Below the pieces are notes generated by a model. That model did not search any database and had not been told where the DNA came from. It was given only the letters and a program-made list of their open reading frames with translations. This document shows positions 2,755-14,419 of a stretch of 55,641 nucleotides of DNA, piece by piece (the stretch's first letter is position 1; each line of letters starts with the position of its first letter). Origin of the DNA: Clostridiales bacterium (GTDB lineage: Bacteria; Bacillota; Clostridia; Oscillospirales; Oscillospiraceae); NCBI GenBank assembly GCA_021205695.1, contig JAJPXB010000059.1, positions 1 through 55,641 on the forward strand, given 5' to 3'. A program made the position numbers and the translations under genes.

Positions 2755-4158
2755 ATGAAACCATTTCTGGACAGGGATTTTCTTCTGGAAACTCCCACGG
2801 CGCAGCATCTCTATCACGACTATGTGGAGGGTCTTCCCCTGGTGGACTACCACTGCCACATCTCTCCCAGGGAGATTTACGAGGATCGCCGCTTTGACAA
2901 TCTGGCGGAGGTCTGGCTGGGAGGCGACCACTACAAGTGGAGAGTCATGCGCTCCAACGGCATCAGCGAGGACTACATCACCGGCGACAAGCCCGCTTTT
3001 GAGCGGTTCCAGAAGTTCGCCGAGTCCCTGGAGCTGTGCATCGGCAACCCCATGTACCACTGGTGCCACCTGGAGCTGAAGAACTACTTCGGCTTTGACA
3101 GCCACCTGAACGGCGACAACGCCAAGGAGGTCTGGGATCTGTGCAACGACAAGCTGCGCAACGACCCCGGCTTCACTGCCCGGGGCCTCATCCGCCAGTC
3201 CAACGTGGCCATGATCGGCACCACCGACGACCCGGTGGACTCTCTGGAGTGGCACCAGAAGATCGCCGCCGATCCCACCTTTGAGACGAAGGTCTGCCCC
3301 TCCTTCCGGCCGGACAAGGCCCTGAACCTGCACAAGGCAGGCTTCGCCGACTACATCGCCCAGCTCTCCGCCGTGGTGGGCCGGGAGCTGGCCACCGCCC
3401 AGGACGTGGCGGACGCTCTGGTGGAGCGGATTGAGTACTTCCACGCCAATGGCTGCCGGGCGGCAGATCACGGGCTGGACTATGTGATGTACCGGCCCTG
3501 CACCCCGGAGGCGGCGGACGCCGCCTACCGCAAGGCGCTGGCAGGCCAGCCCCTGACCGTCGAGGAGATCGAGGGCTATCAGACCACCCTCCTCCTGGCC
3601 TGCGCCCGGGCCTATGCCCGGCTGGGCATCGCCATGCAGCTCCACTACTCCTGCATCCGCAACCCCAACGCCCGGATGTTCGCCCAGTTGGGCCCTGACA
3701 CCGGCTATGACATCATCGCCAACACCAACTGCACCACCGAGCTGGCGGCTCTGCTCAGCGACCTGGACGCCACCGGGGAGTGCCCCAAGACCATTCTCTA
3801 CTCCCTGAACCCCGCCGACAACGCCCAGCTGGACGTGCTCATCGGCGCCTTCCAGGGCACCGAGGTGCCCGGCAAGATCCAGCACGGCTCCGCCTGGTGG
3901 TTCAACGACAACCGGGCGGGCATGGTGGAACAGATGACCTCTCTGGCCAATCTGAGCCTGCTGGGGAACTTCATCGGTATGCTCACCGACTCCCGCTCCT
4001 TCCTGTCCTACACCCGCCATGAGTATTTCCGCCGGGTCATGTGCAACCTGATCGGCGGCTGGGTGGAGAACGGAGAATATCCCGACGATGAGAAGGCGCT
4101 GAAAAGGATCGTCCAGGGCATCAGCTATTACAACGCCGCCCGGTATTTCGACCTCTGA
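2755..4158 (+). CDS. uxaC: Glucuronate (uronate) isomerase
   Basis: Converts D-glucuronate to D-fructuronate (and galacturonate to tagaturonate) in the cytoplasm, the first step of hexuronate use. At 467 residues it has the usual family length. The metal-site motif DYHCHISP is at residues 31-38, the N-terminus KPFLDRDFLLETPTA matches UxaC proteins, and HGSAWWFND near the C-terminus is typical. It is the first gene of a five-gene run with short gaps. The start is fixed by the family N-terminus, but its best ribosome site, AAAGGAG (2710-2716), is about 38 bases upstream. A 5-bp GGGCC/GGCCC stem (2721-2725 with 2740-2744) lies between them and could bring the two closer. An in-frame TAG at 2719 rules out a longer start. 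Confidence 0.96.
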   Translation: MKPFLDRDFLLETPTAQHLYHDYVEGLPLVDYHCHISPREIYEDRRFDNLAEVWLGGDHYKWRVMRSNGISEDYITGDKPAFERFQKFAESLELCIGNPMYHWCHLELKNYFGFDSHLNGDNAKEVWDLCNDKLRNDPGFTARGLIRQSNVAMIGTTDDPVDSLEWHQKIAADPTFETKVCPSFRPDKALNLHKAGFADYIAQLSAVVGRELATAQDVADALVERIEYFHANGCRAADHGLDYVMYRPCTPEAADAAYRKALAGQPLTVEEIEGYQTTLLLACARAYARLGIAMQLHYSCIRNPNARMFAQLGPDTGYDIIANTNCTTELAALLSDLDATGECPKTILYSLNPADNAQLDVLIGAFQGTEVPGKIQHGSAWWFNDNRAGMVEQMTSLANLSLLGNFIGMLTDSRSFLSYTRHEYFRRVMCNLIGGWVENGEYPDDEKALKRIVQGISYYNAARYFDL

Positions 4159-4248
4159 TTGTTGTCCCTCTGGCGCGAGCCAGCTTAATAACCGCCGGCC
4201 GGGCAGGCCGCCCGTCTCCGGCAATCACACAGAAATGGAGTGTTTCAC

Positions 4249-5094
4249 ATGATCGATCTTCCTCTGAACGTTGATTTCTCCGGCAAAGTCGTCGTCGTCA
4301 CCGGCGCCGGCGGCGTCCTCTGCGGCACCATGGCCCGGGCCTTTGCCCAGGCAGGCGCCAAGGTGGCCGCCCTCGACCTGAACGAGGACGCTGTCAAGAA
4401 GCTGGCCGACGAATGTAAGGCCGAGGGCTTTATCTGCGAGGGCTACAAGGCCAACGTGCTGGACGCCGAGGTCCTGGAGAGCGTCCATCAGCAGGTCCTG
4501 GCCGACCTGGGTCCCTGCGATATCCTGATTAACGGCGCAGGCGGCAACAACGCCCGCGCCCAGACCGACAACGAGTATCAGCATGAGGCCAAGGAGGGCC
4601 AGAAGACCTTCTTCGACCTGGATCAGGGCGGCGTGGACTTCGTGTTCAAGCTGAACTTCCAGGGCACCCTCCTCCCCACCCAGGCCTTTGCCAAGGACAT
4701 GGTGGAGCGCAAATCCGGCTGCATCCTGAACATCTCCTCCATGAACGCCTATATCCCGCTGACCAAGATTCCCGCCTACTCCGGCGCCAAGGCTGCCGTC
4801 AGCAACTTTACCCAGTGGCTTGCCACCCACTTCGCCGGCACCGGCATCCGCTGCAACGCCATCGCCCCGGGCTTCCTGGTCTCCAACCAGAACCGCTCCC
4901 TGCTGTTCAACGAGGACGGCACCCCCACCGCCCGCTCCGGCAAGATCCTGGCCGGAACGCCCACCGGTCGCTTCGTGGAGAGCGAGGAGCTGCTGGGCGG
5001 CGTGTTCTTCCTGTGCGATGACAAGGCTGCCAGCGCCATCACCGGCGTGATTCTGCCCATCGACGCCGGCTTCTCCGCCTACAGCGGAGTGTAA
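4249..5094 (+). CDS. uxuB: SDR-family D-fructuronate reductase (D-mannonate oxidoreductase)
   Basis: Reduces fructuronate to mannonate with NAD(P)H, second step of glucuronate use. It is a 281-residue classical short-chain dehydrogenase: TGAGGVLCG at residues 18-26 for the cofactor, ILINGAGGNN mid-protein, serine in NISSMNA and the YSGAK catalytic pair. Its text closely resembles the Bacillus-type SDR enzyme (GPCDILINGAGGNN, PLTKIPAYSGAKAA) rather than the larger enterobacterial UxuB. The ATG at 4249 is chosen over an in-frame GTG at 4240 because GGAG sits 8 bases before it. It follows uxaC after about 90 bases and is 3 bases from the next gene. Confidence 0.88.
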   Translation: MIDLPLNVDFSGKVVVVTGAGGVLCGTMARAFAQAGAKVAALDLNEDAVKKLADECKAEGFICEGYKANVLDAEVLESVHQQVLADLGPCDILINGAGGNNARAQTDNEYQHEAKEGQKTFFDLDQGGVDFVFKLNFQGTLLPTQAFAKDMVERKSGCILNISSMNAYIPLTKIPAYSGAKAAVSNFTQWLATHFAGTGIRCNAIAPGFLVSNQNRSLLFNEDGTPTARSGKILAGTPTGRFVESEELLGGVFFLCDDKAASAITGVILPIDAGFSAYSGV

Positions 5095-5097
5095 GTC

Positions 5098-6399
5098 ATG
5101 GCCCTCCATGTGATGGAGGAGGCCAACCTGTGCCTGGGCTGTAAAAAGCCCAGGTGCCAGGAGGGCTGTCCCATCCATACCAACATTCCGGAGGTCATCC
5201 GTCTGCTGAAAGCGGGCAGGCTGGACGACGCGGGTTGGATGCTCTTTGAGAACAACCCTCTGACCACCGTGTGCAGCCTGGTCTGCAACCATGAGGGCCA
5301 GTGCGAGGGTCACTGCGTCCGGGGCATCAAGGGCGCGCCCGTCCACTTCTCCGTGATTGAAAACTACATCTCCACCACCTACGCCAACAAGATGGTCAAG
5401 GGCCCCGCCCCCTCCAACGGGCGGAAAGCCGCCGTCATCGGGGCCGGTCCCGCGGGCCTGACCATTGCCATCATCCTGGCCCGGTACGGCTACCAGGTGA
5501 CCATCTTCGACAGCCGGGACAAGATCGGCGGCGTGCTGCGGTACGGTATCCCCGACTTCCGTCTGCCCGACTCAGTGCTGGATGATCTGGCCTACCGCCA
5601 CCTGGAACTCAAGGGCATCCAGTTCCGGCCCAACACCTATATCGGCGGGGCCATCACCATCGACGATATGTTCCGGGACGGCTATCAGAGCATCTTCGTG
5701 GGCGCAGGGCTCTGGAAGCCCAACAAGCTCCGCATCCGGGGCGAGAGCCTGGGTACTGTGGCCTACGCCATCAACTACCTGGCCAGCCCCGACGCCTTCC
5801 ATCTGGGGGAGCGGGTCATGATCATTGGCACGGGCAACTCCGCCATGGACTGCGCCCGGACCGCCGTGCGCAAGGGAGCCAGACACGTCACCTGTGTCTC
5901 CCGGACGGATGAGATCACCGCCAGCCAGTACGAGTCCAGTTATGCCAAGCTGGAGGGCGTGGATTTCCTTCTGGACAAATGTACCCTGGAGATCCGGGAC
6001 GACGGCGTGATTCTGGCGGACAGCGCCGTCACCGAGGACGGCAAAATTCAGTCTGTCCCCGGCACGGAAAAGCTCTATCCCTGCGACTTTGTCATCATCG
6101 CCGTCAGTCAGGGAGCGGAGAGCAACCTGGTCACATCTACCAAGGGCATCGACACCAGCCGCACCGGTCTGCTCACCGTAGACGAGGACGGGCACACCAG
6201 CCGCCCCGGGGTCTTTGCCGCAGGGGACGCCGTGAACGGCGCCCGTACCGTGGTAGAGGCCGTCGCCAACGGCAAGCGGGTGGCGGAGGCCATGCACGAA
6301 TATATGCAGTCCCTCCCCCTGCCGGTGACCACCGATTACCCGGACGTCCCGGTAGCCACCTCCGTCCACGCCACCGCCCAGACAGAGCAGCTGCTCTGA
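5098..6399 (+). CDS. GltD-like FAD/NAD(P) oxidoreductase with N-terminal iron-sulfur domain
   Basis: A 433-residue flavoprotein of the glutamate-synthase small-subunit type. Residues about 10-80 carry two cysteine groups (CLGCKKPRCQEGCP and CSLVCNHEGQCEGHC) expected to hold [4Fe-4S] clusters. IGAGPAGL near residue 118 binds FAD, IIGTGNSAMDCA near residue 243 binds NAD(P), and GVFAAGDAVNGARTV near the C-terminus is the second FAD contact. No large GltB-like partner is nearby. It starts 3 bases after the fructuronate reductase stop and is followed by KDPG aldolase, so it is co-transcribed with uronate genes. A role in passing electrons between NAD(P)H and another carrier for the uronate redox step is inference. 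Glutamate synthesis is unlikely without a partner. Confidence 0.8.
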   Translation: MALHVMEEANLCLGCKKPRCQEGCPIHTNIPEVIRLLKAGRLDDAGWMLFENNPLTTVCSLVCNHEGQCEGHCVRGIKGAPVHFSVIENYISTTYANKMVKGPAPSNGRKAAVIGAGPAGLTIAIILARYGYQVTIFDSRDKIGGVLRYGIPDFRLPDSVLDDLAYRHLELKGIQFRPNTYIGGAITIDDMFRDGYQSIFVGAGLWKPNKLRIRGESLGTVAYAINYLASPDAFHLGERVMIIGTGNSAMDCARTAVRKGARHVTCVSRTDEITASQYESSYAKLEGVDFLLDKCTLEIRDDGVILADSAVTEDGKIQSVPGTEKLYPCDFVIIAVSQGAESNLVTSTKGIDTSRTGLLTVDEDGHTSRPGVFAAGDAVNGARTVVEAVANGKRVAEAMHEYMQSLPLPVTTDYPDVPVATSVHATAQTEQLL

Positions 6400-6441
6400 G
6401 GCTTGCCCGCGCAACTATCTCGCAAGAAGGAGTGAAACCAT

Positions 6442-7083
6442 ATGAATGCATTTAACCAGGCCATTTCCGACATCGGCGTCGTGCCTGTCATCAAGCTGAA
6501 CCACCCGGAGCGGGACGCCGCTCCCCTGGCCAAGGCCCTGTGCGAGGGCGGTCTGCCCGTGGCGGAGGTCACCTTCCGTGCCGCCGGGGCAGACAAGGCC
6601 ATCAAGATTATGAAGGAGACCTGCCCTGACATGATCGTGGGCGCAGGCACCGTACTGACCGTGGCCCAGGTGGACGCTGCCGTGGCCGCCGGAGCCCAGT
6701 TCATCGTCTCCCCCGGCTTCAACTACAAGCTGGCGGACAAGTGCCAGGAGCTGAATCTGCCCTACTACCCCGGCTGCACCACGCCCACCGAGTATCAGAT
6801 GGCTCTGGAGTACGGCTATGAGGTGCTCAAGTTCTTCCCCGCCGAGCAGTCCGGCGGCCTGGCCAAAATCAAGGCCATGAGCGCCCCCTTCGCCATGTTC
6901 AAGATCATGCCCACCGGCGGTATCAGCCTGAAGAACCTGGAGGAGTACCTCTCCTGCCCGGTGATTGCAGCCTGCGGCGGCAGCTACATGGTCAAGGCCG
7001 ACGACATCGAGTCCGGCAACTGGGACAAGATCATCGACCTGTGCAAGCAGTCCCGCGCCATCGTGGACAAGGTCCGCGGCTAA
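6442..7083 (+). CDS. eda: 2-keto-3-deoxy-6-phosphogluconate (KHG/KDPG) aldolase
   Basis: Class I aldolase that splits KDPG into pyruvate and glyceraldehyde-3-phosphate, the last step of the uronate branch. At 213 residues the length is normal. Schiff-base lysine K130 is in LKFFPAE, the acid/base glutamate E42 in AEVTFR, and GAGTVLT and PTGGIS are the phosphate and substrate loops. A good AGGAG ribosome site precedes the ATG. It sits 42 bases after the GltD-like gene and 31 bases before the matching kinase, which confirms the pathway assignment. Confidence 0.95.
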   Translation: MNAFNQAISDIGVVPVIKLNHPERDAAPLAKALCEGGLPVAEVTFRAAGADKAIKIMKETCPDMIVGAGTVLTVAQVDAAVAAGAQFIVSPGFNYKLADKCQELNLPYYPGCTTPTEYQMALEYGYEVLKFFPAEQSGGLAKIKAMSAPFAMFKIMPTGGISLKNLEEYLSCPVIAACGGSYMVKADDIESGNWDKIIDLCKQSRAIVDKVRG

Positions 7084-7114
7084 GCCCCCCATTACAGAAA
7101 GGATCTGATCACCC

Positions 7115-8143
7115 ATGGGTAAAGTAATCACCTTCGGCGAGCTGATGGTTCGCCTCCAGCCCTACAACTATGAGCGTTTCGTCCAGGCCAACAACCTGGA
7201 GTTCACCTTCGGCGGCGGCGAGGCCAATGTGGCCGTCTCCCTGGCCAACTATGGCCTGGATGCAGCCTTCGTCACCAAGCTCCCCGCCCACGCCATCGGC
7301 CAGGCGGCTATCAACAGCCTCCGCCGTTACGGCGTGGACACCAGCATGATCGTCCGGGGCGGCGACCGTGTGGGCATCTATTACAACGAGAAGGGCGCCT
7401 CCCAGCGGGGCAGCGTCTGCATCTATGACCGGGCCAACAGCGCCATTCAGCTGGCCCAGCCCGCCGACTTTGACTGGGACAAGATCTTTGAGGGCGCCGA
7501 CTGGTTCCACTTCACCGGCATCACTCCGGCCCTGGGCCCCAATGTGGTGGAGATTTGCAAGGAGGCCTGCAAGGCCGCCAAGGCGCACGGCGTGAAGATC
7601 TCCTGCGATTTGAACTACCGCGGCAAGCTGTGGACCCGCGCCCAGGCCCGGGAGGCCATGACCGACCTGTGCCAGTATGTGGACGTGTGCATCTCCAACG
7701 AGGAGGACGCAAAGGACGTGTTCGGCATCGAGGCCGAGGCCACCGATATCTACGGCGGCACCCTGAACCACGAGGGCTACAAGTCCGTGGCCAAGCAGCT
7801 GGCGGACAAGTTCGGCTTTGAGAAGGTTGCCATCACCCTGCGGGAATCTCACAGCGCCTCCGACAACGGCTGGAGCGCCATGCTCTACAATGTGGCCACC
7901 GATGAGTACTGCTTCAGCAAGAAGTACGAGCTGCGCATCGTCGACCGGGTCGGCGGCGGCGACAGCTTCGGCGGCGGTCTGATCTATGCCCTGCTCACCG
8001 GCAAGGACACCCAGGCTGCCGTGGAGTTCGCCGTGGCGGCCTCCGCGCTCAAGCACACCATCGAGGGCGACTACAACATGGTCTCCGTCTCCGAGGTGGA
8101 GAAGCTGGCCGGCGGCGACGGCTCCGGCCGTATCCAGCGGTAA
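7115..8143 (+). CDS. kdgK: 2-keto-3-deoxygluconate kinase, PfkB family
   Basis: Phosphorylates 2-keto-3-deoxygluconate with ATP to give KDPG. It has 342 residues with the PfkB entry FGGGEANVAVSLANYG near residue 33 and the C-terminal signature DRVGGGDSFGGG, whose aspartate D283 is the catalytic base. An AAAGGATCTGA ribosome site precedes the ATG. It is the last gene of the operon and is followed by two very strong hairpins. The next aldolase-kinase pair order (eda then kdgK) is common in Firmicute uronate operons. Fructokinase or another PfkB sugar kinase is the alternative, but context favours KDG. Confidence 0.9.
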   Translation: MGKVITFGELMVRLQPYNYERFVQANNLEFTFGGGEANVAVSLANYGLDAAFVTKLPAHAIGQAAINSLRRYGVDTSMIVRGGDRVGIYYNEKGASQRGSVCIYDRANSAIQLAQPADFDWDKIFEGADWFHFTGITPALGPNVVEICKEACKAAKAHGVKISCDLNYRGKLWTRAQAREAMTDLCQYVDVCISNEEDAKDVFGIEAEATDIYGGTLNHEGYKSVAKQLADKFGFEKVAITLRESHSASDNGWSAMLYNVATDEYCFSKKYELRIVDRVGGGDSFGGGLIYALLTGKDTQAAVEFAVAASALKHTIEGDYNMVSVSEVEKLAGGDGSGRIQR

Positions 8144-8269: not shown

Positions 8270-9706
8270 TTACATCAGGATAGTGCGATAGATTTCCATA
8301 TACTCCTCGGCGGACTTGTTCCAGCTGAAGTCGGCCTGCATACCCTGCTTCATCAGGTCTGTCCAGGCGTCCTTGTCGTCATAGACGGCCAGGGCGCGAT
8401 CCACAGCCCCAAGCATATCCTCGGCGTTGATGTTGCCGAAGGTGAAGCCCAGGCCCTCCTTCGTCTCGGGGTCGTAGGCGGGGACGGAGTCCTTCAGGCC
8501 GCCGGTGAGTCGGACGATGGGGACGGTGCCATACCGCAGGGCGATCATCTGGCTCAGGCCGCAGGGCTCTGCGATGGAGGGCATGAGGAACAGGTCAGCT
8601 CCGGCATAGATGGCGGAGGAGAGGGGCGCGGAGTAGGTGATGTTGGAGGAGACGCGGCCGGGATACCGGGCCTGGGCGTTGCGGAAGAACTCCTCAAAGC
8701 CCCACTCGCCGGTGCCCAGGAGGACGAACTGGACATGGTTGTCCATGATCCGGTCGAAGGCGGCGGTGACCAGGTCATAGCCCTTATGCCCCACCAGACG
8801 GGAGATAGAGCCGATGATGGCGGCGTCCGGGTCCTCATCCAGGCCCAGCTGACGCTGGAGGTCGGCCTTGCAGACCGCCTTGCCGGAGAGGTCATCGATG
8901 GAGAAGTTGGCGGCGATCTTGGGGTCCTTCTCAGAATTGAAGGCGTCCATGTCGATGCCGTTGAGGATGCCCCGGATCTTATGCTGGTTCTCCGCGATCA
9001 CGCCCTCCAGCCCGTGGGCATAGAAGGCATATTGCAGCTCGTTGGCATAGGTGGGCGAGACGGTGGTCACAAAATCGGAGGCATAGATAGCGCCCTTCAT
9101 CAGGTTGACGTCGTTATAGAAGGAGAGCATATGCTCGTTGAAGTAGGTGTTGTAGTCCAGGCCAAACACGTCGGTGAGGATGGAGTTACCATAGCGGCCC
9201 TGGTACTCGATATTGTGGATGGTGTAGACCGTCTTGGCCCCGGTGAGCTCGGGGACATACTTCCGGGCCTCCATCAGGTAAATGGGGACCAGCGCGGTCT
9301 GCCAGTCGTTGCAGTGAATGATGTCCGGGGACCAGCCGATCTGGGCGGGCACCTCGATGACGGCCTTGGAGAAGTAGGCAAAGCGCTCGCCGTCGTCGTA
9401 GTGGCCATAGAGGCCGTTGCGCTTGAAGTAAGTCTCGTTATCCACGAAGTAGTAGGTGACGCCGCCCCGATCCAGCTGGAACAGGCCGCAGTAGCAGCTC
9501 CGCCAGCCCAGCTGGAGGTAGAAGTACTTCACAAAGGACATCTGACTGCGCCAGGTGTCGCCGATGCCGGCGTACAGAGGCAGGATGACCCGAACATCGT
9601 TGGTCTTGTCCGCAGCCAGGGCGGGGGGCAGAGATCCCGCCACGTCTGCAAGACCGCCGGTCTTGATGAAGGGGGCGACCTCGGAGGAGGCAAACAGGAT
9701 TTTCAT
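8270..9706 (-). CDS. glgA: Glycogen synthase (ADP-glucose type)
   Basis: Transfers glucose from ADP-glucose to the non-reducing end of alpha-1,4-glucan. It has 478 residues, the standard length. KTGGLADVAGSLPPAL at residues 15-30 is the ADP-glucose site, and PSIAEPCGLSQMIALRYG near the C-terminus is the GT5 EX7E region. The start at 9706 (MKILFASSEVAPF) matches the family and has GGAAAGGA upstream. The longer frame to 9841 would run into a dispersed repeat and is rejected. It is the last gene of the minus-strand glg cluster, separated from glgD by that repeat. Confidence 0.96.
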   Translation of the reverse strand: MKILFASSEVAPFIKTGGLADVAGSLPPALAADKTNDVRVILPLYAGIGDTWRSQMSFVKYFYLQLGWRSCYCGLFQLDRGGVTYYFVDNETYFKRNGLYGHYDDGERFAYFSKAVIEVPAQIGWSPDIIHCNDWQTALVPIYLMEARKYVPELTGAKTVYTIHNIEYQGRYGNSILTDVFGLDYNTYFNEHMLSFYNDVNLMKGAIYASDFVTTVSPTYANELQYAFYAHGLEGVIAENQHKIRGILNGIDMDAFNSEKDPKIAANFSIDDLSGKAVCKADLQRQLGLDEDPDAAIIGSISRLVGHKGYDLVTAAFDRIMDNHVQFVLLGTGEWGFEEFFRNAQARYPGRVSSNITYSAPLSSAIYAGADLFLMPSIAEPCGLSQMIALRYGTVPIVRLTGGLKDSVPAYDPETKEGLGFTFGNINAEDMLGAVDRALAVYDDKDAWTDLMKQGMQADFSWNKSAEEYMEIYRTILM

Positions 9707-9770: not shown

Positions 9771-9932
9771 AGGGCGTCGCCACACAAATCGGCAAGAGCG
9801 GACGGCGAGTTATTTTTCGTCAGGAAAAGATGCGAAAGCACAGACGTACCGGATGTACTTCATCTTTTGCAAACGCATTTCTGGCGGAAAATAGCCGCCA
9901 GACACCGCAGGCGCATTTGTGCGGCGATGCCT
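9771..9932. repeat. 162-bp near-palindromic dispersed repeat, copy A
   Basis: The same element occurs inverted at 47784-47945. The outer ends are inverted repeats (AGGGCGTCGCCACACAAAT against the reverse complement of the right end, 16 of 19 matches). A small dyad GTAC-N6-GTAC lies at the centre, and the two arms are similar along most of their length, so the element can fold into one long imperfect hairpin. It fills the gap between glgD and glgA and ends in the glgD stop codon. Confidence 0.8.
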
Positions 9933-11047
9933 TAGATACGGGTTCCCTTGGAGTAGACGATGGGATAGGTCTCGCAGCCGGAGAGGGTGCGGTTGGGGCC
10001 GATGGCCACAGACTTGTCACAGATGACGCAGTTCAGGCTGGCGCCGTCGCCTATGTCGGTGTCCTTCATCAGGATGCAGTTTTTGACCACTGCGCCCTTG
10101 CCCACCTTGACATTGCGGAACAGGATAGAGTTCTCCACGGCGCCCTCAATGACGCAGCCGTCGGAGACCATGGAGCCTACCACCTTGGAGTCGGGCCCAT
10201 AGTAGGCGGCGGGGTCGGAGCGATCCTTGGAGCGGATGGGGTGATCCGGGTTGAACAGGTCGTCCCGAACCTCCTTCTTCAGCAGATCCATGCTCTTCTC
10301 GAAATAGTCCGCCACAGTGGGGAACCGGGCCACATAGCCCTCGAAGATGTAGGGGACCACCTTCAGGCCCAGCTTGTCCTTGTTTGCCAGAACCTGATGG
10401 GAGAAGGAGTACAGGCCGCGGGCAGCGGAGTAGTCCACCAGCTCGATGAGCTTGGCCTTGCTGATGACATAGATGTTCAGCGCCTCATAGCTGTTGTCCA
10501 CAGGCTTGTTCAGGATCTCGTCGGCGGTGCCGTCCTCCGTCAGGGTGTAGTAGGTGGCATAGCCCGGGCGGTCGGTGTACTTCTTGGAGCAAACGGCGGT
10601 GACATCTGCACCGGTGGCCATGTGCTGGTCAAAGACCTTGCTCAGAGAGATGTTCAGGACGATGTCCGCGTCGGCGATGATGATATACTCCTGCTCGATC
10701 TCTCCCAGGTAGCTGCGGAGACCGGTCAGGGCGTCCATCATGCCCTGGTAGTTGTGCTGCTGGTCGTTGCCCATGGAGAAGGGGGGCAGCAGCCGCAGGC
10801 CGCCGTGACGACGGGCCAGATCCCAGTCCTTGCCGGAGCCAAGATGGTCCAGAAGGGACTGATAGCTCTGCTGGAGGACGACACCGATGTCAGAGATGCC
10901 GTCGTCCACCATATTGGAGAGGATAAAGTCCACCAGGCGATACCGGCCGCCGTAGGGCACGGAGGAGATGGAGCGGATGGAGGAGAGCTCCTTCAGGTTA
11001 TAGCCGGGCTGGTTGGTCATGAGAAGACCATGCACATTGTTTAACAT
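9932..11047 (-). CDS. glgD: Glucose-1-phosphate adenylyltransferase, GlgD (regulatory-type) subunit
   Basis: Partner of GlgC in Firmicute ADP-glucose pyrophosphorylase. It has 371 residues. The N-terminal fold resembles GlgC (PYGGRYRLVDFILSNM) but the nucleotide-binding GGxGxRL motif is absent, as expected for a GlgD subunit that stimulates rather than catalyses. The C-terminus is a left-handed beta-helix with hexapeptide repeats (GCVIEGAVENSILF..., GKGAVVKNCILM). Its ATG overlaps the glgC stop in a TAATG junction, indicating translational coupling and probably equal subunit supply. Confidence 0.94.
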   Translation of the reverse strand: MLNNVHGLLMTNQPGYNLKELSSIRSISSVPYGGRYRLVDFILSNMVDDGISDIGVVLQQSYQSLLDHLGSGKDWDLARRHGGLRLLPPFSMGNDQQHNYQGMMDALTGLRSYLGEIEQEYIIIADADIVLNISLSKVFDQHMATGADVTAVCSKKYTDRPGYATYYTLTEDGTADEILNKPVDNSYEALNIYVISKAKLIELVDYSAARGLYSFSHQVLANKDKLGLKVVPYIFEGYVARFPTVADYFEKSMDLLKKEVRDDLFNPDHPIRSKDRSDPAAYYGPDSKVVGSMVSDGCVIEGAVENSILFRNVKVGKGAVVKNCILMKDTDIGDGASLNCVICDKSVAIGPNRTLSGCETYPIVYSKGTRI

Positions 11048-12237
11048 TATGCAACACCGCCTTTCGATTCTTCAGTATACATGGCTCCGGCAGGCACGGT
11101 CGCCCCCTGATCCACGGTGACGCCGCCGGCGACGACGGCGATCGCGCCCTTGTCCTCGCCCACCACGGCGTTGGCCTCAACGGTGGTGTCCTCGGCCAGG
11201 ATGGTGTACTCCACTTTGGAGCCCGCCCTGACCACGGCGCCGGGCATGAGCACGGAGTAGCGGACCACTGCGCCCTTCTCCACGGTGACGTTTTCGAAAA
11301 TGACGGAGTTGTCCACGACGCCGTCGATCTGGCAGCCGCCGGCCACCAGGGAGTGGGTGATCTCAGCGTCGGGGCCGTCCACATGGGGCGGGCAGACGTT
11401 GGTGCGGGCATAGATGGGCCAGCCCTTGTCGAACACCTGGATGCCGGAGTGGATGTCCAGCAGATCCATGTTGGCGTCCCACAGGGAGGTGATGGTGCCC
11501 ACGTCCTTCCAGTAGCCGCCAAAGCGGTAGGCCACGCAGGTCTCGCCCTTTCCGATCAGGTTGGGGATGATGTTGCCGCCAAAGTCGTTCTTTGAGGTGG
11601 GGTCGTTCTCGTCGGCGATGAGTGCCTCGCGCAGCTTGGACCAGGTGAAGATGTAGATGCCCATGGAGGCCAGATTGCTCTTAGGGTGCTTGGGCTTCTC
11701 CTCGAACTCGTAGATCACGTCGTTCTCGTCCACGTTCATAATGCCGAACCGGGTGGCCTCCTCCATGGTGACCTCCAGGACGGAGATGGTGGCGGCGGCG
11801 TTCTGGGCCTTGTGGAAGTCCAGCATCTTGTCATAGTCCATCTTATAGATATGGTCGCCGGAGAGAATGAGCACATACTCCGGGTTGTACATATCAATAA
11901 AGTCGATGTTCTGATAGATGGCGTTGGCAGTTCCCTTGTACCAGGAGCCCTTCTCCCCTGCGCCCAGGTAGGGGGGCAGCACATGGACGCCGCCCTCGGA
12001 CTTGTCCAGGTCCCAGGGCTGGCCGTTGCCCAGATAGGCATTGAGCTCCATCGGGCGATACTGGGTCAGGACGCCTACGGTGTCGATGCCGGAGTTGACG
12101 CAGTTGGACAGGGGGAAGTCAATAATCCGGTACTTTGCGCCGAAGGGGACGGCGGGCTTTGCCACGGAGCGGGTCAGTGCGTACAGGCGGGATCCCTGTC
12201 CGCCGGCCAGCAGCATGGCGACACATTCCTTCTTCAT
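11047..12237 (-). CDS. glgC: Glucose-1-phosphate adenylyltransferase, catalytic subunit
   Basis: Makes ADP-glucose from ATP and glucose-1-phosphate, the committed step of glycogen synthesis. It has 396 residues. [16 protein letters not shown] at the N-terminus is the nucleotide loop, [18 protein letters not shown] follows, [11 protein letters not shown] holds the metal-site aspartate, and [10 protein letters not shown] is the sugar-phosphate region. The C-terminus is a beta-helix. A GAGGTGA ribosome site lies 7 bases before the ATG. It follows the branching-enzyme gene by 178 bases, with a possible internal promoter there, and is coupled to glgD. Confidence 0.96.
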
Positions 12238-12415: not shown

Positions 12416-14284
12416 TCAAGCCCCGGCGAGGACAAGCCCGCTCATGGGGGGCAGCTCCACCTCGATGGAGTATGGGAGCAGATGGCAGGAGATGGAGGCG
12501 CTCGAAATGATCTCGTTCTCTCTCACCGATCCCTCGCCGCCGTGGGCCAGAGCGTCGGTGTGAAACACCACCCGGTAGTCTCCCGCCTTCTCCACACCTA
12601 TGCGATAGTGAGGGCGGCGGACGGCGGAGAAATTCAGTGCAATGAGCAGCTCCTGCTCCGACTTGTCCCGGCGGAGATAGACCAGAACATTGCCGCTCTC
12701 GTCGTCCCGACAGACCCACTGGAATCCCCGGGTGTTGTTATACACCTCCCAGAGAGGAGGGTTTGCCAGGTAGAACTGGTTAGCGTCCCGGAAAAACGCC
12801 TGGTGCTTTCGGTGCTGCTCCTGCTCCAGCAGATGCCAGTCCAGGGAGTACTCGTGCCGCCAGGGCCCCCGCTGCCCAAATTCCGTCCCCATCATCAGCA
12901 GCTTTTTGCCGGGACAGGTGAGCATATAGAGGTAAAACACTCTGGCCCCGGCAAATTTCTCCCGGTCGTTCCCCGGTATCCGCTCGATCAGGGAGCTTTT
13001 GCCGCTGCACACCTCGTCGTGGGACAGGGGCAGGAGGAACTTTCGGGAAAAGGCGTAACCCACGGACAGGGTCAGGTCCTTGTGGTTGTACTGCCGGTAG
13101 ATGGGGTCTAAACGGATATAATGGAGAGCGTCGTGGGCCCAGCCCTGGTTCCACTGGAATGTGTTGTCCCGGACGGCGATCTTCGTCCGCTCGGTGGTGG
13201 CCTCGGCGCTGAGCATGGCGTTGGGGAACTGCCGGTGGATCTCCTCGTTCAGCAGCCGGAGAAACTCCTCCGCCTCCCGGTTTTCCCGTCCTCCCTGCTC
13301 ATTCGGCTCCCAGGGGCGGCCCTCCGCATCCAGATAGAGCATGGATGGCACGGCGCTGAGCCGCAGGCCGTCCAGGTGGTACTCCCGGAGCCAGAACAGA
13401 GCGGAGGAAAGGAGAAACGCTCTCACCTGGGGCTTTCCAAAGTCAAAGACGCTGGTCCCCATCCGGGGCAGGTCGGCCTTTTGGGGGTCTGCATATTCAT
13501 AGCACGGGGTACCGTCAAACAGGGCCAGCCCATGCTCGTCCCGGGGGAAGAAAGCGGGGACCCAGTCCATGAACACCGCCACCCCCGCCTGGTGAAGCTG
13601 GTCCACCAGATACATAAAGTCGTGGGGGGAGCCGAATCGGCTGGTGGGGGCGAAATATCCCGTACACTGGTAGCCCCAGCTGGCATCCAGGGGATGCTCG
13701 GTCAGGGGGAGCAGCTCCACGGCGGTGAAGCCCATCTCCTTCACATACGGGACCATCCAGTTGGCGTACTCCCGATAGGAGAGATAGCTGCCGTCGCCCC
13801 GCCGCCGCCAGGAGCCCAGATGTACCTCATAGATATTCAGCGGATTGCAGCCATACGGGTGGCGGGCGCAATAGCTCTGCCAGGCATCATCTCCCCAGGC
13901 GTACCCTGCGATGGCGTAGAGCTTGGAGGCATTGGAGGGGCGCGTCTCCGCGTGGAAGGCGAAGGGGTCGGCCTTGTCGATCCAGCGGCCGTCCCGGGTC
14001 TGGATGGTGAACTTATAGCTGTCATACCGCTGTGGGCCGGGGATAAAGCACGTCCATATGCCGTCTCCGTCCGCGGTCATGGGGTCAGCCTCCCGGTTCC
14101 ACTGATTAAAGGAGCCGATCACGGAGACGGCATTCGCCTTCGGCGCCCAGACACGAAAAAACCAGCCGGATCTCCCCTCCTGCTGGACAGGATGCGCGCC
14201 CATAAACGCATACGCATGATCTGAGCTGCCGTTCAAAAAACCAGTGACATGGCTGTCTGCCTCGGCGGGAGGGATCGTATACAC
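12416..14284 (-). CDS. glgB: 1,4-alpha-glucan branching enzyme homologue lacking the catalytic nucleophile
   Basis: A GH13 protein of about 622 residues with GlgB architecture: CBM48 (GWFFRVWAPKANAVSVIGSFNQWN), a TIM barrel, and a C-terminal beta domain. Key family motifs are altered. Region I reads DWVPAFFP where GlgB has DWVPGHFP. Region II reads GLRLSAVPSMLY where GlgB has GLRVDAVASMLY, so the nucleophile aspartate is serine (codon 13355-13357). Region III keeps the first glutamate but reads AEATT for AEEST. Region IV keeps SHDE but reads DEVCSGK for DEVVHGK. Branching activity is therefore doubtful. A structural or regulatory role beside GlgC/GlgD/GlgA is inference. A GTG at 14284 has GGAGGA 8 bases upstream. 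ATG at 14299 is the alternative start. Confidence 0.85.
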   Translation of the reverse strand: MYTIPPAEADSHVTGFLNGSSDHAYAFMGAHPVQQEGRSGWFFRVWAPKANAVSVIGSFNQWNREADPMTADGDGIWTCFIPGPQRYDSYKFTIQTRDGRWIDKADPFAFHAETRPSNASKLYAIAGYAWGDDAWQSYCARHPYGCNPLNIYEVHLGSWRRRGDGSYLSYREYANWMVPYVKEMGFTAVELLPLTEHPLDASWGYQCTGYFAPTSRFGSPHDFMYLVDQLHQAGVAVFMDWVPAFFPRDEHGLALFDGTPCYEYADPQKADLPRMGTSVFDFGKPQVRAFLLSSALFWLREYHLDGLRLSAVPSMLYLDAEGRPWEPNEQGGRENREAEEFLRLLNEEIHRQFPNAMLSAEATTERTKIAVRDNTFQWNQGWAHDALHYIRLDPIYRQYNHKDLTLSVGYAFSRKFLLPLSHDEVCSGKSSLIERIPGNDREKFAGARVFYLYMLTCPGKKLLMMGTEFGQRGPWRHEYSLDWHLLEQEQHRKHQAFFRDANQFYLANPPLWEVYNNTRGFQWVCRDDESGNVLVYLRRDKSEQELLIALNFSAVRRPHYRIGVEKAGDYRVVFHTDALAHGGEGSVRENEIISSASISCHLLPYSIEVELPPMSGLVLAGA

Positions 14285-14382
14285 AGTTTTTTCCTCCATC
14301 TGTATGGATTCAGTCAAAAACAGGTATGAATGGGGTAAAACTTGTTATCATTCCCACAGATTCCGGAGAATCAGAAACCTGT

Positions 14383-14399
14383 TTGTATAAATTATACAA
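14383..14399. promoter_or_regulatory. Perfect palindrome over the glgB -10 box
   Basis: TTGTATAA-A-TTATACAA, two 8-base arms around one base, covers the -10 of the glg promoter. This is the layout of a repressor operator. The regulator is unknown. Confidence 0.5.
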
Positions 14400-14419
14400 T
14401 AGAAAGGGTATGTCGTCAA
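14391..14419 (-). promoter_or_regulatory. Promoter of the glycogen cluster
   Basis: Minus-strand TTGACG (14419-14414), 17 bases, TATAAT (14396-14391). The predicted leader is about 100 bases long before the GTG at 14284. Confidence 0.8.

Follow-up and report, generated by a model that had tools for sequence, protein, structure and literature searches.

Introduction

Non-catalytic relatives of enzymes are already known to run starch metabolism in plants. There, ISA2, an isoamylase-like protein in which the same class of positions is substituted as in the case described below, is non-catalytic and forms a complex with ISA1 (PMC3787081, in its available part). The MKIP1/class III branching enzymes of land plants, which have a CBM48 domain and have lost two aspartates of the catalytic triad, are presented in the available text of PMC13172542 as inactive but conserved proteins that carry a 150-residue insertion after the carbohydrate-binding module, bind MatK, and work in splicing. 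In bacteria, a GlgA-GlgB fusion is described for the chlamydial families Waddliaceae and Criblamydiaceae, in which the GlgB domain is reported to be inactive and glgC to be lost (PMC11046441, in part). In Escherichia coli GlgB, several surface glucan sites lie >15 Å from the active site (PMC10254366, likewise in part); loss of the chemistry thus need not abolish glucan binding. Here, we analyse a degenerate glgB gene of the GH13_9 branching-enzyme type that heads the glycogen operon of a Clostridiales bacterium, encoded on a 55,641-nucleotide stretch of contig JAJPXB010000059.1 (hereafter "the window", meaning that whole stretch).

Pseudo-enzymes of storage-glucan metabolism are known as a kind, with no bacterial counterpart, i.e., no catalytically dead stand-alone bacterial GlgB, found among the literature matches listed (titles and abstract openings, with subscription papers largely outside). 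Our analysis confirms a clade-wide pseudo-branching enzyme in the relatives of the window genome, for which we judge it probable that a GH13_8-type enzyme took over branching, with the operon GlgB surviving as a non-catalytic subunit that binds glucan or a partner. Retention of a dead GlgB within the glycogen operon of a bacterial clade would extend to bacteria the logic known from plants, and would offer a ready system for finding GlgB functions beyond branching.

A degenerate GlgB in an otherwise complete fold

The minus-strand frame of the window gene is open and unbroken, with a GTG start giving precisely the interval first annotated (Table 1); a TTG start at 14317 would alternatively yield 633 residues, and the plus-strand frame of the same interval is interrupted by stops. 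Over its whole length, the protein matches GlgB in sequence and domains: it scores 757.5 bits against the NCBIfam GlgB equivalog (cut-off 577), has the domain order CBM48, GH13 barrel, C domain, and shares 40-46 percent identity with the nearest GlgBs of solved structure (E. coli, Vibrio, Rhodothermus, and Cyanothece). Since it passes the equivalog cut-off, automatic annotation would call it an active branching enzyme. An AlphaFold model based on a 56-row alignment reached a predicted local distance difference test (pLDDT) score of 88.7 (72.3 with 15 diverse rows); by alignment and model, the fold is complete apart from several replaced catalytic residues.

Residues were mapped by alignment to E. 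coli K-12 GlgB, of which we take D405 to be the nucleophile, E458 the acid/base, and D526 the third acid. In the window protein this triad is incomplete, with E458 and D526 present and serine (S310, codon AGC read from 13357 to 13355) in place of D405. The further active-site set D335/H340/R403/E459/H525 is likewise incomplete, with F245 at the H340 position and A362 at that of E459; D335, R403, E458, H525, and D526 persist as D240, R308, E361, H422, and D423. A first-pass annotation of this DNA had read the same losses of the nucleophile, of the region I histidine, and of the second region III glutamate (the first being present) in an open frame, all of which we recover. It had also assigned a serine to the "region IV histidine" (DEVCSGK); this serine is real, but the label is off, as the canonical H525 is present and the serine in question (S427) stands at H530. 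From its sequence, we strongly infer that the window GlgB is catalytically inactive.

Table 1. Coordinates of glgB, its active-site codons and domains, and the surrounding glg operon in the window
Feature	Coordinates	Strand	Remarks
Degenerate glgB (GH13_9-type)	12416..14284	minus	622 residues; GTG start 14284, stop at 12416
CBM48 domain	13958..14203	minus	Pfam PF02922, 78.4 bits
Codon 245 TTC (Phe)	13550..13552	minus	E. coli H340 position (H340F)
Codon 310 AGC (Ser)	13355..13357	minus	E. coli nucleophile D405 position (D405S)
Codon 362 (Ala)	13199..13201	minus	E. coli E459 position (E459A)
Codon 427 (Ser)	13004..13006	minus	E. coli H530 position (H530S)
Alpha-amylase C-terminal all-beta domain	12425..12718	minus	PF02806
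Shine-Dalgarno-like GGAGG	14293..14297	minus	8 bases before GTG 14284
Near-consensus promoter TTGACG-17-TATAAT	14391..14419	minus	upstream of glgB
Terminator-like stem-loop	14477..14501	minus	after the gene preceding glgB
glgC	11047..12237	minus	NCBIfam equivalog
glgD	9932..11047	minus	NCBIfam TIGR02092, 311 bits, cut-off 236.6
glgA	8270..9706	minus	NCBIfam equivalog; open reading frame from TTG 9841, ATG 9706 likely start

Catalytic positions are lost across the genus in differing ways

We surveyed 32 genomes of the window's GTDB genus, which we infer to be the one holding Candidatus Onthomonas avicola, given that the GlgB of one member (G001) is identical to the GlgB of that species (loci L011 and L037). 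A GlgB-like gene is present in 31; the remaining genome is 76 percent complete and is missing glgC too. Seven positions were scored (D335, H340, R403, D405, E458, H525, and D526; given below as strings in this order). At least one has been lost in 29 of the 31 genomes, in differing ways, and the nucleophile is gone from 24 of the 29 whose sequence covers it. The window clade (six genomes, the window's included) reads DFRSEHD in four cases, DFRSDHD in one, and DFRGEHD in one, i.e., Ser (5/6) or Gly (1/6) at the nucleophile position and Phe at that of H340 throughout. Elsewhere in the genus, G004 reads DCRGEHD, G001 and G031 read DHRDEHN, and G002 reads DCRDDHF; Cys occupies the nucleophile position in seven genomes (the Cys group), ten make up a Thr group (one, G020, seen in region I only), G028 has Asn (in an assembly with 10 percent contamination), and G027, covered in region I only, has Cys for His. 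The glgC-adjacent copy retains all seven positions in G024 and G025 only. Outside the genus, all seven are kept by 206 of 210 non-identical sequences of >=560 residues, a count made after leaving out identical sequences, GH13_8 rows, and shorter open reading frames, and including some species twice, from two collections.

A sequencing error at 13355-13357 is rejected, as the five nearest genomes also lack Asp at this position, carrying Ser (four) or Gly (one). In the comparison with homologues proposed in the first-pass annotation, nucleophile loss is clade-wide and apparently repeated; the serine itself is not conserved and is therefore not a new catalytic residue. Nor is any other substitute conserved at the nucleophile position, which is either Ser or Gly in the window clade; the rest of the genus has Gly, Cys, Thr, Asn, or Asp there. 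The presence of D240, R308, E361, H422, and D423 in the window protein could nevertheless be taken to mean that it is still an enzyme, with residual activity or reliance on another residue, e.g., as a weak hydrolase or transferase acting through E361 and D423; listed with this support is the window-clade member that has Asp at the E361 position. We hold this to be highly improbable: variation of position 310 between Ser and Gly leaves nothing conserved to replace the nucleophile, and H340, E459, and H530 have been lost as well. In addition, ISA1 became inactive through the one corresponding substitution (available part of PMC3787081), and restoration of the triad did not revive plant MKIP1 (available part of PMC13172542).

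Two Thr-group loci (L027 and L032) contain an insertion of ~35 residues in the dead barrel, after approximately residue 262 in the numbering of the window protein, and have lost barrel segments. Separately, G026:C18 and G030:C26 (loci L022, L195, and L196) encode an extra, divergent GlgB with all seven positions present, in addition to the degenerate operon glgB and a GH13_8 gene; no glg gene was found around the divergent copy, and the nearest solved relative of that at L022 is FdBE2 of Faecalibacterium duncaniae (21jh).

A second branching enzyme is associated with catalytic loss

Besides the operon glgB, the window genome has three further GH13 genes, one of which (G000:C14) encodes a 686-residue branching enzyme of a subfamily that we take to be GH13_8, with intact motifs and activity predicted from sequence. 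The first-pass annotation had proposed a search for a second, intact glgB; the intact enzyme present in the genome belongs to the other branching type within GH13, with 34 percent identity to the window GlgB over ~340 residues. This type occurs in 28 of the 32 genus genomes (25 of the 26 of high quality); 28 of its 29 loci in the genus cover all four motifs, and those 28 retain the catalytic residues. At all eight genus loci inspected, the sequence fetched around the GH13_8 gene was free of glg genes. In a 300-genome sample of the family, 71 genomes match GH13_8 at 1e-60, of which six are in the genus, 21 are strong matches outside it, and the rest are weak cross-matches to GH13_9 genes. The closest GH13_8 enzyme beyond the genus (G184, from another genus) is 81 percent identical to that of the window genome, exceeding the 70 percent obtained when parts of the genus are compared with one another, which suggests that the gene may have spread by transfer.

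G184 itself (L348 and L380) holds GH13_8 with glgC-D-A and no glgB, and three genomes of the same genus (G112, G238, and G317) have an intact GH13_9 enzyme with no GH13_8 found; this would be an apparent replacement of GH13_9 by a transferred GH13_8. In the window's genus, G031 (L012 and L173) is 98 percent complete; the single GlgB-type enzyme detected there has D526N (SHNEV), and no GH13_8 gene was found in it. Either a gene was missed, the variant is active, or this organism makes glycogen with no known branching enzyme.

Outside the genus, catalytic loss was seen in three of the 11 genomes with both GH13_9 and GH13_8 (G032, DHRGEHD; G059, DRRCEHN; G085, DRKSQLD) and in one of the 136 genomes read with no GH13_8 detected (Fisher p = 0.0012, for genomes that share ancestry). 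Absence of GH13_8 was checked with a GH13_8 protein query in all 136 (66 + 70; 4/4 positive controls matched in the set of 70). Seven of 77 GH13_9 genomes in one set, having split or partial matches, were left out of the reading, and seven family genomes with GH13_8 and no GH13_9, as well as G266, G268, and G322, stand outside the count of 11. In a rapidly built tree (LG+G4, 80 rows), with long branches flagged for G085 and G028, the genus operon copies and G085 form one group (SH-aLRT 99) in which the Asp-retaining members are nested. If lost residues were never regained, we count from this topology roughly five losses within the group plus three elsewhere; the tree tool's own minimum, with the two long branches flagged, is five state changes in all.

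Selection on the degenerate gene

The dead glgB is maintained by purifying selection in the window clade. Among four of its genomes (six pairs), the ratio of nonsynonymous to synonymous substitution rates (dN/dS) is 0.110-0.142, which falls in the range seen for relatives with intact GH13_9 genes (0.111-0.298 over five pairs); the clade's GH13_8 genes give 0.048-0.106. Simulated neutral copies remained open in 0 of 500 runs at 0.2 changes per site and in 1 of 500 at 0.1. A pseudogene in the window genome is rejected, the frame being intact, dN/dS low, and both a promoter and a ribosome site present. Values are higher in some other lineages, where constraint is thus weaker: 0.074-0.165 in the Thr group, 0.147-0.450 in the Cys group, and 0.274 for G001-G031, with 0.182 for G024-G025, in which all seven positions are intact. 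These estimates cover four of six window-clade, four of ten Thr-group, and all seven Cys-group genomes, and those for the relatives were taken from stop-to-stop frames that include some upstream non-coding codons and so tend to inflate dN.

Of 114 positions that are >=97 percent invariant in the 206 intact relatives, the window protein has lost 13. Invariant N-terminal/CBM48 positions are retained at 48/48 in the window clade, 72/72 in the Thr group, and 77/84 in the Cys group, and those around the active site at 82, 58, and 38 percent, respectively (four of six, six of ten, and seven of seven genomes counted). Within the window clade, variation is lower in the barrel (0.07-0.09) than in the N domain (0.18) and the C domain (0.22).

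Operon position and promoter

In all 29 fetched genus loci, glgB precedes glgC, and glgD and glgA come next where the contig is long enough to show them. The promoter pattern of the window, its single match in the entire 55.6-kb sequence, recurs as TTGAC(G/A/T)-17-TATAAT in 25 of the 26 fetched genus loci with >=100 upstream bases, the sole miss being G013, where the contig ends 102 bases upstream; it was not found upstream of the degenerate glgB genes of G032, G059, and G092. With glgB first behind this conserved promoter, and no terminator-like site on the operon strand in the glgB-glgC interval, the open frame might be retained solely through polarity, i.e., because stops in the first gene would harm translation and transcription of glgC-D-A. 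Polarity would not, however, preserve amino acids, as the window-clade dN/dS indicates they are, or the CBM48 positions, and glgC-D-A occurs without glgB in eight of nine other genomes (see below); we consider this explanation very unlikely. The constant position beside glgC also argues against recruitment of the protein to a function outside glycogen, for which the dead plant branching enzyme MKIP1 is the precedent (PMC13172542, in part). No insertion of ~150 residues like that of MKIP1 is seen in the window protein when compared with solved and related GlgBs, nor any large insertion in the GlgBs of its clade, and such neofunctionalisation strikes us as decidedly unlikely.

On the plus strand at 2755-8143, the glg operon is adjoined by an apparent hexuronate breakdown cluster, with genes that, named from their translations by eye, look like those for uronate isomerase, short-chain dehydrogenase, KDPG (2-keto-3-deoxy-6-phosphogluconate) aldolase, and sugar kinase.

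A proposed path from takeover to a binding subunit

The following sequence of events would account for these data. (i) The lineage holds, apart from the glg operon, a GH13_8-type branching enzyme that is intact in sequence. (ii) From the association and the tree, this enzyme would have made catalysis by the GH13_9 GlgB dispensable, after which the catalytic residues were lost, apparently several times and in differing ways. (iii) The full-length protein has been retained, first in a glgB-glgC-glgD-glgA operon with a conserved promoter, under purifying selection comparable to that on intact GlgBs. (iv) The dead GlgB would then act without chemistry, most likely by binding alpha-glucan and/or a partner via CBM48 and the dead barrel groove, and would tether or tune the glycogen-making enzymes (GlgA, GlgC/GlgD, or the GH13_8 enzyme), in the way that ISA2 serves ISA1 in starch. 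It may be a scaffold or a glycogen-binding regulator, as the first-pass annotation proposed. The suggestion in that annotation that the operon retains a GlgB relative without catalysis gains support from nucleophile loss in relatives, the second branching enzyme, purifying selection, and the conserved operon place and promoter.

Several observations weigh against this takeover and retention. Window-clade glgB has about twice the dN/dS of its operon partners (means of 0.053, 0.063, and 0.075 for glgC, glgD, and glgA in the same four genomes), and the Cys group reaches the upper extreme given above. Two genus copies are disrupted, by a stop in G019 and a frame change in G018. Outside the genus, eight of the 11 genomes with both enzymes have an intact GlgB; conversely, G092 (DQRGEHD) has lost the nucleophile with no GH13_8 detected, and G031 combines its D526N GlgB with the same lack of a detected GH13_8. 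All nine genomes with GH13_8 and no recognised full-length GH13_9 have glgC-D-A, and in eight of them the fetched stretch contains no glgB, so that not every such genome requires a non-catalytic role. The conserved promoter also drives glgC-D-A, and thus suggests transcription rather than a need for GlgB. Lastly, CBM48 as the sole selected part is unsupported in the window clade: constraint there is strongest on the barrel and looser on the N and C domains, such that CBM48 is not singled out.

The ninth of those genomes (G223; L384, 6034-7443, minus strand) has, upstream of glgC, a 470-residue open frame with ~26 percent identity to intact GlgB and no recognisable catalytic motifs, seemingly a shrunken GlgB relic in another GH13_8-bearing genus.

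Taken together, the eight genomes without glgB beside glgC, the G223 relic, the two disrupted genus copies, the drop to just 38-63 percent retention of invariant positions in the barrels of the Thr and Cys groups, and the dN/dS values of the Cys group and G001-G031 could instead describe a slowly decaying relic, in which glgB, after takeover by GH13_8, lost catalysis first and is now functionless and heading for deletion. The window-clade dN/dS, the failure of any neutral run to stay open at 0.2 changes per site, and the near-universal presence of the gene in the genus speak against this, and we regard it as unlikely.

Beyond retention of a binding subunit in this genus, bacterial GlgB at large might have a second, non-catalytic role, ordinarily masked by its chemistry, in binding the polymer and at least one of GlgA, GlgC, and GlgD; horizontally spread GH13_8 would then have taken over branching, with the site lost repeatedly and binding alone retained. 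We offer this only tentatively and see it as somewhat doubtful. If true, the genus would provide a natural separation of function, and two subunits encoded by its operon, pseudo-GlgB and GlgD, would be pseudo-enzymes.

Comparison with known systems

GlgD, a relative of a catalytic family that serves as a non-catalytic subunit, shares the operon with the window GlgB, but is related to GlgC and not to GlgB, and is thus an analogy only. The GH13_9 GlgBs of E. coli and its relatives have the domain order, NCBIfam equivalog match, and glg operon in common with the window protein, which differs in the replacement of D405, H340, E459, and H530 and in the second branching enzyme of its genome. As far as the available parts of the reports cited above describe them, the remaining systems compare as follows. 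In the Waddliaceae and Criblamydiaceae fusion, too, a bacterial GlgB domain is reported to be inactive, through genomic fusion in that case, whereas the window clade has substitutions within a complete glgB-C-D-A operon. MKIP1 is also a conserved branching-enzyme homologue with CBM48 and lost catalytic residues, but it is a plant splicing protein with an insertion, while the window gene lies in a glg operon and has no such insertion; it is the ~35-residue insertion of the two Thr-group loci that recalls the new insertion of MKIP1. ISA2, finally, is a plant debranching-enzyme relative with a demonstrated ISA1 complex, whereas for the window GlgB a complex is a prediction; like the window GlgB, ISA2 is an alpha-glucan protein of the GH13 fold with several catalytic residues replaced and an active relative alongside, and the window GlgB displays three features of this type, namely replaced residues in a complete fold, a relative with intact residues in the same genome, and selection.
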